A stretch of DNA of 64,000 nucleotides from Borborobacter arsenicus (GTDB lineage: Bacteria > Pseudomonadota > Alphaproteobacteria > Rhizobiales > Rhizobiaceae), in contig NZ_ML133511.1 of assembly GCF_003934165.1 (NCBI RefSeq), positions 1 to 64,000 on the forward strand, given 5' to 3'. Shown here piece after piece: positions 49,976 to 53,064 of the stretch. Within the stretch, counting starts at the first letter, position 1. Each line of letters begins with the position of its first letter. The notes below the pieces were generated by a model. It saw only the letters and a program-made list of their open reading frames with translations. It searched no databases and was not told the DNA's origin. The translations under genes and the position numbers were made by a program.

Positions 49976-50862
49976 GGCACGATCGGGCTCCCGTCAAACT
50001 GCCCGCCATCAACGACATAACCATAGGCGGCATCGTTGCCCGGCAGGTGCGGAAACCCTTGGAAATTCACGCTGTTGGAGAATTTGCCCTTGCAGGTGGC
50101 AAAATTCTTGTCGCACCCGGCGTGGACAACGAATGCATCACCGATCTCGACTGGCGGCCCGCCCATAGGCCGCAGCGCTATTGCCATCCCCTCCACATGC
50201 CGGCCATGATCCACGATCTGCTCGCTGCGCCCAGCACGTGCGCCTGTCGACCAGCTTAGCGTGCCATGCGAAAACCATCCGGGTTGAAATGCCTCCAGCC
50301 CTGCAACAAGGAATGTATCGCCGTCTTCTTTAGCCGTCACATGGCCGTTGCCACGAAAACCGGGCAGATCGAGGACGAAACGGCAGCGCGCATCGCCGAG
50401 TTCGGCATCGCAGGTGCGGCTCACATAGCGTCCATTGGGCTGGTCGAGCGTGTGCATGAGGCTCTCGAGCTCGGCCACGAAACGCTGATCGCTTCGTTTT
50501 ATCTTGCCGATCGTGGCCGTCCGCAGCACCGCAAAATCTTCCGGCTGGCACCAGTTGACCAAAATCGTTTCGATCTTCGCTCCGTCGTAAAGGCCGGCGG
50601 CAATGTCCTCTTCGCTTATATCGGCCGACGAAAGCGCGCCTTCTATATCGACGGTATCGACCGCAAGCCCCAGCGTGCCTCTGGCCTCGCTGGCGCTGAA
50701 TCCGCTCTCCGGCTTGAAGGCCATGCCATCGACGCTCAGCGGACGGTCATGGTCGGTATAGCCCGCCGCACTGCCGTCCTTCCTCGTCAGCCGCCAGCAA
50801 TGGCAAACCGTTGTCACTTCGCCGGCCAGATGGTCGACCAATTGTTGCTTGTATGCGCTCAA
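49972..50862 (-). CDS. GTA gp13, tail hub protein (DUF2163)
   Basis: This 296-residue protein is the baseplate hub. An N-terminal DUF2163 domain is followed by a cysteine-rich C-terminal part with paired cysteines (CDAELGDARC and CDKNFATC), then NSVNFQGFPHLPG. Related tail-tip proteins use such cysteines to bind an iron-sulfur cluster. It overlaps gp12 and gp14 by four bases each. Length matches the family. Confidence 0.92.
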   Translation of the reverse strand: MSAYKQQLVDHLAGEVTTVCHCWRLTRKDGSAAGYTDHDRPLSVDGMAFKPESGFSASEARGTLGLAVDTVDIEGALSSADISEEDIAAGLYDGAKIETILVNWCQPEDFAVLRTATIGKIKRSDQRFVAELESLMHTLDQPNGRYVSRTCDAELGDARCRFVLDLPGFRGNGHVTAKEDGDTFLVAGLEAFQPGWFSHGTLSWSTGARAGRSEQIVDHGRHVEGMAIALRPMGGPPVEIGDAFVVHAGCDKNFATCKGKFSNSVNFQGFPHLPGNDAAYGYVVDGGQFDGSPIVP

Positions 50863-51513: not shown

Positions 51514-52098
51514 TCAAAATGTCCTGCTGCCGCGCGAAACCGCGCGTGCCAGCATGCCGGTAATCTGTGCTTCGGATCTGCGGAAGGATTGCGCGTCCTG
51601 CGTGGTCACGTTGAAGACCACATTCACCGGCGCCCCGCCTGTTCCGGTTGCGGCGACGCCCAGCCTGCCATCGGCGGAGCGCTGCAGAGGGAGGATCGCT
51701 TCGGCGCCTGCTTCGCCGGCAAGACCTATGTTTCTTCCCAACGGAAAGTAGCTCGGGCTCGATATCACCCCACCACTGGCGAAAGGCACGACATTCGCGT
51801 TACGGACGGCCCCGCCTTTGGCAAAGGGCATCACTCCGGAAATACCGCCAAGCAATGCGGAAAACTGCGCACCTGCCAGCGTCTGCAGGGGCTTCAGCCC
51901 CTGTTCCAGCGCCAGACCTGCGAGGTTCAGCCCAACCCGCCGCAAAACATCATCGAGTTCCCTGCCATGGACGGCCGCACTCTTCAGCGCGCCGGTCAGT
52001 TGCACGCCGAACCGGTCGGACATTTTCTGCAGTCCTTCCAGTGCGCTCTGGAACGGTGCCGTGTCTGCGGTAATCGATACGGTGACATCTTCGGCCAT
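51514..52098 (-). CDS. GTA gp11, tail tape-measure protein
   Basis: This 194-residue protein sets tail length and may thread through the tail tube. It has a Gly/Ala/Val-rich C-terminal part (GGAVRNANVVPFASGGVI, then GLAGEAGAEAILPL, the usual tape-measure repeats). It is much shorter than phage tape-measure proteins, in line with the short tail of RcGTA. The ATG at 52098 has gggaga upstream; an in-frame start at 52110 is also possible. Confidence 0.88.
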   Translation of the reverse strand: MAEDVTVSITADTAPFQSALEGLQKMSDRFGVQLTGALKSAAVHGRELDDVLRRVGLNLAGLALEQGLKPLQTLAGAQFSALLGGISGVMPFAKGGAVRNANVVPFASGGVISSPSYFPLGRNIGLAGEAGAEAILPLQRSADGRLGVAATGTGGAPVNVVFNVTTQDAQSFRRSEAQITGMLARAVSRGSRTF

Positions 52099-52109
52099 CG
52101 TTTCTCCCA

Positions 52110-52307
52110 TCAGTCAGGAAAGATGCGCATCAGTGCGCTCAACTCGGCGCGGCGAGGTGCTTGTCCGCCGTCACGCGGCAATACGCTCAGCGCTCGCTCC
52201 AATTCGCGCGGCGTCATTGCCCAGAATGCGGCCGGTGAAAGCCGCAGCAGACCGAATCCCATGGCCATCGCCTCATCCCAGGGAAACGCGTTTCGCTGGC
52301 CTGCCAC
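52110..52307 (-). CDS. GTA gp10.1, tail-assembly chaperone (rcc01693-like)
   Basis: This 65-residue protein contains FPWDEAMAMGFGLLRLSPAA, PAAFWAMTPREL and DGGQAPRRAELSALMRIFPD, the pattern of small GTA gp10.1 chaperones. The only start is a GTG at 52307, five bases after the gp10 stop, without a clear Shine-Dalgarno. Its frame is -1 relative to gp10 and is open through the junction. A slippery heptamer sits directly before the gp10 stop, so it may be made as a gp10-gp10.1 fusion by frameshifting rather than by reinitiation. Confidence 0.85.
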   Translation of the reverse strand: MAGQRNAFPWDEAMAMGFGLLRLSPAAFWAMTPRELERALSVLPRDGGQAPRRAELSALMRIFPD

Positions 52308-52312
52308 GGCGT

Positions 52313-52651
52313 CTAAGGGTTTTCCGGGCCTTGCTCCCTTGCGGCGCCGAAGGTCGCAGCCTGCAGTTCCGAAACGATTGCGGCGAACCCCGCCGCGCCG
52401 TTCGGCGTGTGCATCTGGCCGACTTCCTCGTCGCTGATGTCTTGGCCGGCCCCTCGCAATCCGGCGCCCACGATGCGCATCATGTCGAGGGCCGACAGCC
52501 GTCCGCGCGAAAACCGCTCGACCAGCGCACCCAGATCGTCGGCGGCGTAAGTGGCTTCCAATTCAGCCAAGGCCCCCAGCGTCAGGCACAACCGCACCGT
52601 CTGGCCGTCGAGTTCGGCGGCGATTTCGCCGCGATGCCGATTTGCGGTCAT
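52313..52651 (-). CDS. GTA gp10, tail-assembly chaperone
   Basis: This 112-residue protein has the GTA gp10 pattern: an opening beta element (RHRGEIAAELDGQTVRLCLT), then ALAELEATYAADDLGALVER and LSALDMMRIVGAGLRG. It probably coats the tape measure before tail polymerisation. It overlaps gp9 by ATGA, and gp10.1 follows in the -1 frame. Confidence 0.92.
   Translation of the reverse strand: MTANRHRGEIAAELDGQTVRLCLTLGALAELEATYAADDLGALVERFSRGRLSALDMMRIVGAGLRGAGQDISDEEVGQMHTPNGAAGFAAIVSELQAATFGAAREQGPENP
52316..52339 (-). promoter_or_regulatory. Candidate -1 ribosomal frameshift signal, gp10/gp10.1
   Basis: On the minus strand the last gp10 codons are GAA AAC CCT TAG. The heptamer A AAC CCT (52316-52322) has the X XXY YYZ form, directly before the stop. 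AGGGAG (52334-52339) lies 11 bases upstream, similar to the stimulatory Shine-Dalgarno-like element of E. coli dnaX. A shift to the -1 frame reads TTA GAC GCC GTG and enters gp10.1 with no stop. Confidence 0.6.
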
Positions 52652-53064
52652 AGCATCACCGTGAAGCTTATCGGCCCGGCGGATTCCAGCGCCATCTCGA
52701 ATGTCACCTCGCCGTCATGGCTGCCCGAATATTCGAGCGCCGTGATCTGGAAAGCGCCTTCGACCGTGCCGAAATCCGGAACGATCAATTGCCAGTCGGC
52801 GATCGTGCCTGCAAAGAACCGAGTGCGGATTTCCGCATCGGATGACGCATCCTTGAAAATGCCCGATCCGTTGATCGAAGCACGCTGCACGCCGCTGCCG
52901 GCAAGCAATTCGCGCCACCTTCCGGCGGAATCGGCATCGGTCACGTCCACCGTCTCGCTGTTGAAGGCAATCCGTTTCGAACGCATTCCCGCTGCCGTGA
53001 CGAAGCTGCCGGCACCACTGGTGTCGAGCTTCAAGAGCAGGTCCTTGCCCTTTTGTGCGACCAT
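52648..53064 (-). CDS. GTA gp9, major tail tube protein
   Basis: This 138-residue protein is of the TP901-1 type major tail protein family and polymerises to the tail tube. Recognisable parts are KGKDLLLKLDTSGAGSFVTA and the VDVTDADSAGRWRELLAG block, both typical. It overlaps gp10 by four bases. A gap of 43 bases separates it from gp8, with a ggaggc ribosome binding site. Confidence 0.93.
   Translation of the reverse strand: MVAQKGKDLLLKLDTSGAGSFVTAAGMRSKRIAFNSETVDVTDADSAGRWRELLAGSGVQRASINGSGIFKDASSDAEIRTRFFAGTIADWQLIVPDFGTVEGAFQITALEYSGSHDGEVTFEMALESAGPISFTVML

Follow-up and report, generated by a model that had tools for sequence, protein, structure and literature searches.

A head-tail gene cluster of Borborobacter arsenicus raises the question of how gp10.1, which encodes its second tail-assembly chaperone domain, is translated after gp10. 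The cluster lies in the window, by which we mean the whole stretch of 64,000 nucleotides that was analyzed. A preliminary description of this DNA had proposed that a programmed -1 frameshift likely joins gp10 and gp10.1; that interpretation was supported by a comparison of 231 junctions. The sequence, its conservation, the -1-frame coding of the linker in relatives and the lack of usual starts in many of them were observed; the occurrence of the slip, its rate and the role of its product are inferences.

Gene organization around the junction

The window is part of a draft assembly of 107 contigs, in which its contig measures 228 kb, and contains an RcGTA-type head-tail cluster, in which matches to PF05065, PF11367, PF06199, PF11836, PF09550 and PF09343/TIGR02217 follow one another in that order on one strand (minus). 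The two small genes gp10 and gp10.1 are flanked by gp9, which encodes the tail tube protein, and by gp11, which encodes the tape measure protein (Table 1). The gp10.1 product scored 62.7 bits against PF09550 (cut-off 23.4) and 59.7 bits against TIGR02216 (cut-off 56.1). On another contig of the same genome there was a second PF11836 gene (L002, 52 bits) with no detectable gp10.1 partner, perhaps part of a prophage. In the predicted fold of gp10, the mean pLDDT was 89 overall and 61 in the last, loose blocks after residue 100, a low value that fits a linker region. A comparison of this fold with PDB gave no match at E ≤ 0.001, and there were likewise 0 matches at E ≤ 0.001 in BFVD, where the first entry named as a tail assembly chaperone stood at rank 5 (E 0.012, TM 0.61/0.44); the similarity between the gp10 prediction and predicted tail assembly chaperones of phages is thus weak.

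The 3' end of gp10 reads GAA AAC CCT TAG, so that the A AAC CCT heptamer stands immediately before the stop codon, as the preliminary description had stated. The AGGGAG 11 bases upstream and the open -1 frame leading through TTA GAC GCC into gp10.1 were also found where it had placed them. The GTG at 52307-52305 (minus), the first codon of gp10.1, would be read in this frame as the Val of L-D-A-V. It was the only ATG, GTG or TTG seen in the -1 frame between the gp10 stop and the conserved FPW core, and no Shine-Dalgarno sequence was visible near it, in agreement with the earlier claim of a sole start lacking such a sequence. The fusion expected after a -1 slip was computed at 180 amino acids, matching the proposed size of about 180 residues, and its junction-spanning tryptic peptide would be EQGPENPLDAVAGQR.

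Table 1. Coordinates of the features at the gp10/gp10.1 junction and of the neighboring genes in the window
Feature	Position	Strand	Basis
gp11, tape measure protein, downstream gene	51514..52110	minus	NF058675 RcGTA_tape 158 bits (cut-off 220, not reached); TGATG overlap with gp10.1
gp10.1, second tail-assembly chaperone domain	52110..52307	minus	65 aa from GTG plus stop; PF09550, TIGR02216
Putative -1-frame linker TTA GAC GCC (L-D-A), slip site to gp10.1	52308..52316	minus	-1-frame coding evolution in relatives
gp10 stop TAG, directly behind the heptamer	52313..52315	minus	sequence
gp10, first tail-assembly chaperone gene	52313..52651	minus	112 aa plus TAG, zero frame; PF11836 93.5 bits (cut-off 27.8)
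Candidate slippery heptamer A_AAC_CCT, X_XXY_YYZ type	52316..52322	minus	sequence; conserved in relatives
AGGGAG, SD-like element, proposed 5' stimulator	52334..52339	minus	sequence; 11 nt between AGGGAG and heptamer
gp9, upstream gene for the major tail tube protein	52648..53064	minus	PF06199 157 bits; ATGA overlap with gp10

Selection of junctions for comparison

Whole genomes were searched for gp10, which matched in 268 of 394 genomes of the family, 198 of 297 of the order and 44 of 389 of the class; named genome contigs (at least 14 loci) and phage records (2 loci) were further sources. We took 130 loci from the family (the window included), 70 from the order and 29 from the class, two of these last (L085 and L090) belonging to the window's own order; the sampled loci were the better-scoring ones and thus a non-random draw. 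The 247 loci yielded 242 gp10/gp10.1 pairs, with no pair from L002, L089, L097, L098 and L231, and 231 non-redundant junctions remained when identical sequences around the stop were collapsed. A set from a further family (L248-L264) was read and stands outside all counts. Changes were counted on a quickly built tree of modest support, on which 14 of 37 contrasts fell on starred branches.

Conservation of the -1 frame and the heptamer

Among the 231 junctions, all from Alphaproteobacteria, gp10.1 was in the -1 frame relative to gp10 in 210, in the +1 frame in 17 and in the zero frame in 4. AAACCCY occurred near the end of gp10 in the reading frame of gp10 in 111 of the 231 and in the other two frames in 2. 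Two of the 111 were filtered out, namely L091, where the heptamer lies past the core start, and L193, where the -1 frame is closed at the heptamer, and the 109 kept sites were distributed as 91 of 134 junctions in the family subset (family, named contigs and window), 15 of 69 from the order, 1 of 26 from the class and both of the 2 phage-labelled records. The -1 relation was found in 124 of 134 junctions of the family subset and in 61 of 69 of the order. The alignment of relatives proposed in the preliminary description therefore showed both features in the family, and conservation of both extended past it into the order. Conversely, 122 of the 231 junctions had no kept heptamer, and 21 were outside the -1 frame. 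Most close relatives in the comparison retain the putative slip site, which is rare outside the order.

The heptamer adjoined the gp10 stop in 79 of the 109 junctions and preceded it by 3-45 nt in the other 30. Its position relative to the stop has changed at least 13 times on the tree, and the heptamer persisted when the stop moved. Away from the junction, in-frame A_AAC_CCY was encountered 7 times in 299,587 codons of the same loci, the background being all coding-strand open frames of at least 100 codons from stop to stop, whether genes or not; A_AAC_CCY at the junction exceeds this chance expectation. No single-frame ORF carrying both domains fused was found, which speaks against the frameshift. 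In L067, L070, L107, L109, L171, L187, L188 and L194, GGACCCT or GGACCCC replaces AAACCCT, and C_CCY is kept near the gp10 stop. Slippage of a single tRNA and decay of the site are both possible in these relatives.

Start codons and the expression of gp10.1

In 45 family junctions with linkers of equal length, the ratio of non-synonymous to synonymous differences in the linker was 0.81 in the -1 frame vs 4.75 and 4.08 in the other frames, and that in the gp10.1 core was 0.65 vs 3.87 and 6.34; the ratios count single-step codon differences over all pairs and ignore kinship. Because the linker evolves as a coding sequence of the -1 frame, this frame appears to be translated from the slip site onward. 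The residues following the slip would be L-x-A-A in most loci with the heptamer adjacent to the stop and S-x-A-A in many non-adjacent loci.

We then considered whether gp10.1 has a start of its own. When ATG, GTG and TTG were counted from 45 nt before the gp10 stop to the core, 40 of the 109 heptamer junctions had none, 47 had TTG only, and 22 had ATG or GTG. In 45 of the 47 TTG-only junctions the TTG overlapped an adjacent TGA stop, so restart may occur there. The GTG of the window is not conserved: a GTG at its place (+8) was present in 3 of the 79 adjacent junctions, the window included, and 23 of the 79 had no ATG, GTG or TTG at all. The annotated gp10.1 of L246 (MW462191, 1887-2066) and L247 (MW091529, 1908-2066) begins at an internal ATG past the conserved FPW, as expected if the gp10.1 domain had no start of its own. 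Both are phage-labelled records whose GTA-like tail genes resemble the ones in the window, and they may be pieces of bacterial chromosomes.

One reading that is compatible with frameshifting has both routes in use, a low-level frameshift giving the fusion and a weak restart giving free gp10.1, in proportions that differ by lineage. The 9 heptamer junctions (of 109) that also had ATG or GTG near the stop, together with the 45 in which a stop-overlapping TTG is the only start, would suit such a combination; the 40 junctions with no ATG, GTG or TTG, and the GTG of the window with no visible Shine-Dalgarno sequence, would not. We consider this combination possible but somewhat unlikely.

Termination-reinitiation alone would dispense with the frameshift: a restart shortly after gp10 (at the GTG at +8 in the window, or at TTG in relatives reading CCT|TGA) would make free gp10.1, and the -1 relation would merely follow from the overlap of start codons with stop codons. 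Within the cluster itself, such overlaps were seen at 4 of the 7 junctions inspected (gp9/gp10 ATGA, gp10.1/gp11 TGATG, gp12/gp13 TTGA and gp13/gp14 ATGA), and not at gp10/gp10.1, gp11/gp12 or gp14/gp15. The TTGA at gp12/gp13 (window 50859-50862) is formed by the apparent TTG start of gp13, so the cluster may make use of restart at TTG. In relatives, ATG or GTG lay within -12 to +3 of the stop in 32 of 59 -1-frame junctions without any heptamer, and in genus g401 of the further family, GTG or ATG overlapped the stop in all 14 loci inspected. The window, however, ends gp10 with TAG, so that no TTG can overlap its stop, and the scarcity of GTG at +8 and the lack of any ATG, GTG or TTG in 23 of the 79 adjacent junctions are difficult to reconcile with reinitiation. 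Reinitiation also leaves unaccounted for the constraint that the linker ahead of the GTG shows in the -1 frame, the persistence of the heptamer when the stop moves, and the third-base A and CCT codon described below. As the only mode of gp10.1 expression it is therefore improbable.

Many junctions without the heptamer showed ATGA or GTGA overlaps. ATG or GTG was near the stop in 9 of 126 junctions with AAACCCY or CCCTTTC/TTTCCCT vs 49 of the 105 remaining ones (p 2.6e-12, plain counts). Exclusion between the heptamer and ATG/GTG overlap was not significant after tree correction (median p 0.625), and therefore it is claimed only as a tendency. CCCTTTC or TTTCCCT was present in 17 of the 231 junctions beyond those with AAACCCY, and 16 of these had no start before the core. 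Its use as a slip site is a possibility; the sequence could also stem from the PFPW codons themselves. In the 6 loci inspected of genus g225, also of the further family, gp10 continued as far as the PFPW codons, which it met at CCCTTTC, and the core was not preceded by any start. In L088, L091, L092, L093 and L261-L264, gp10 enters the gp10.1 core at a sequence resembling CCCTTTCC (PFPW), with no ATG, GTG or TTG before the core. The PFPW region may represent a second type of shift site.

Codon choice at the heptamer

The heptamer might instead be a mere protein motif, the C-terminal Asn-Pro of gp10, or a DNA or RNA site unrelated to translation; Asn and Pro are indeed the final two residues of gp10 at 75 of the 91 family sites. 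We chose loci by residues alone, and 90 of the 124 -1-frame family loci had Asn-Pro within the last 14 codons of gp10. At the last Asn-Pro of these 90 loci, Asn was encoded by AAC in all 90, and Pro by CCT in 80 and CCC in 10. The preceding codon ended in A in 90 of 90 despite encoding eight different residues, and this residue has changed at least 40 times on the tree. Codon use in the same genes would lead one to expect A in 16.9, CCT, a rare Pro codon, in 7.8 and CCY in 32.6 of 91 family sites; the sole misfit among the 91 was ACC AAT CCG, a second Asn-Pro upstream of the proper site. When all groups and the last 20 codons of gp10 were considered, A preceded Asn-Pro in 111 of 115 sites, and CCT was used in 103 and CCC in 12; in the order group, A was found in 15 of 17 and CCT in 16. 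None of 8 control Asn-Pro pairs elsewhere in the same genes carried the heptamer. As the third base is A throughout and CCT predominates though the preceding residue varies, selection appears to act on the bases and not on the residues. Against a mere protein motif or a site unrelated to translation stand the fixed codon choice, the fixed third base of a variable codon and the retention of the reading frame of gp10 (111 in frame vs 2 out), so that this alternative is very improbable. Transcriptional slippage in place of ribosomal slippage is the least credible of the alternatives: no observation favored it, and it usually needs runs longer than the 4 A and 3 C present in the window.

Sequences flanking the heptamer

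In the 109 junctions, pairing with the anti-SD sequence at a spacing of 7-10 nt was stronger than after synonymous resampling (z about -5 to -6, with loci treated as independent). SD-like 4-mers were located 8-13 nt upstream of the heptamer in 58 of the 109 vs 40.4 expected, and they were found in 48 of the 79 stop-adjacent loci vs 10 of the 30 non-adjacent ones. The view of AGGGAG as a dnaX-like stimulator is thus supported by an enrichment of SD-like sequences near that distance, which holds only as an average over junctions.

On the 3' side, a downstream hairpin was considered as a stimulator and rejected: the mean z was about +0.2 for stretches whose start lay 7-15 nt beyond the initial base of the heptamer, and no consensus RNA structure was found downstream in 46 loci. 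A weak structure signal (mean z -0.76) was given by the stretch starting 25 nt after that base. GCCGC was positioned exactly 5 nt past the heptamer in 87 of the 109 junctions (68 of the 79 with the stop adjacent, 19 of the other 30), where the window reads GCCGT (52306-52310, minus). The corresponding -1-frame residues were Ala-Ala in 88 of 109, encoded with GCC in 87 against a background of 36% and with GCA in 69 against one of 9%. GCCGC(A) is a base-level signal, fixed in position and codon choice, with no predicted stem-loop.

Proposed mechanism and significance

Because of this conservation, we consider it very probable, from comparative sequence analysis, that ribosomes undergo a programmed -1 frameshift at A_AAC_CCT and so fuse gp10 to gp10.1 in a gene-transfer agent, in the manner of lambda G/GT. 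The majority of ribosomes would end at TAG and release gp10 of 112 amino acids. In a minority, the Asn and Pro tRNAs on AAC and CCT would slip one base back onto AAA and CCC, and these ribosomes would read TTA GAC GCC GTG and onward, so that the fused product would have about 180 residues. In slipping, the Pro tRNA would give up its wobble pairing with CCT and gain a better pair on CCC. The SD-like sequence about 10-11 nt upstream probably assists by pairing with 16S rRNA, by analogy with dnaX, and GCCGC(A), located 5 nt downstream in most relatives (GCCGT in the window), may assist as well. On the model of lambda G/GT, the short and long products would be made in a ratio suited to assembling the tail between the gp9 tube and the gp11 tape measure.

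A broader proposal can be made only tentatively. Selection across a large alphaproteobacterial group may have kept in a GTA a ratio-setting tail-chaperone frameshift, composed of A_AAC_CCY with a stop codon at or close to the A site, of an SD-like element and, 5 nt downstream, of a fixed and apparently unstructured GCCGCA, which would constitute a stimulator of a new, sequence-based type; some lineages may have swapped this device for an ATGA/GTGA restart or for a slip within the PFPW codons. If the frameshift is real, selection has long preserved a recoding event in a domesticated gene-transfer agent, a virus-like particle, which would suggest that tail assembly in such elements is still functionally maintained. 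Synthesis by frameshift would also make gp10.1 awkward to annotate, as in the two phage-collection records with the start annotated inside the domain. The junction peptide would then be diagnostic, a simple reporter assay could be applied, and GCCGCA would be a possible new stimulator.

Comparison with known systems

In line with the preliminary description, which knew of no such case in a GTA, no description of a gp10/gp10.1 frameshift in a GTA was found in the literature searched, which leaves out most subscription papers. In the text available of each source, PMC11409702 was not among the papers pairing 'RcGTA' with 'frameshift', PMC7296036 gave 0 matches for 'frameshift', and the +1 shift proposed in a Wolbachia hydrolase gene in PMC10299305 is a separate matter. 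According to the accessible part of PMC11409702, g10 and g10.1 (g10.5) of the Rhodobacter capsulatus RcGTA are named tail chaperones 1 and 2. In Caulobacter phage phiCbK, the available text of PMC3556154 gives a -1 frameshift between gp93 and gp94 at a slippery AAAAAAC, and GGGAAAC in phage Colossus. As far as that text extends, phiCbK is likewise a phage of an alphaproteobacterium with pre-tape-measure chaperones and a -1 frameshift; it differs from the present locus in being a phage and in its heptamer (AAAAAAC vs A_AAC_CCY). RcGTA g10/g10.1 and the present pair share their gene families (PF11836, and TIGR02216, which is named after rcc01693).

The -1 frameshift of E. coli dnaX uses A_AAA_AAG with an SD-like AGGGAG about 10 nt upstream and a 3' hairpin. 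The window shares AGGGAG upstream of its heptamer; unlike dnaX, the gp10/gp10.1 junction gave no hairpin signal. The programmed -1 frameshift of lambda G/GT and its relatives was reportedly described by Xu, Hendrix and Duda in 2004. In the portion of PMC5009743 available, lambda G/GT is a -1 frameshift of tail genes of which the long form is rarer. On that partial account, gp10/gp10.1 resembles it in that two small genes lie between those for the tail tube and the tape measure, stand in a -1 relation and have a heptamer close to where the first of them ends. Unlike lambda G/GT, the GTA junction has A_AAC_CCY as its heptamer, with the stop directly behind it in 79 of 109 cases and a fixed 3' GCCGC(A) in most heptamer-bearing relatives, and it belongs to a domesticated GTA, in which the fusion is predicted from sequence.
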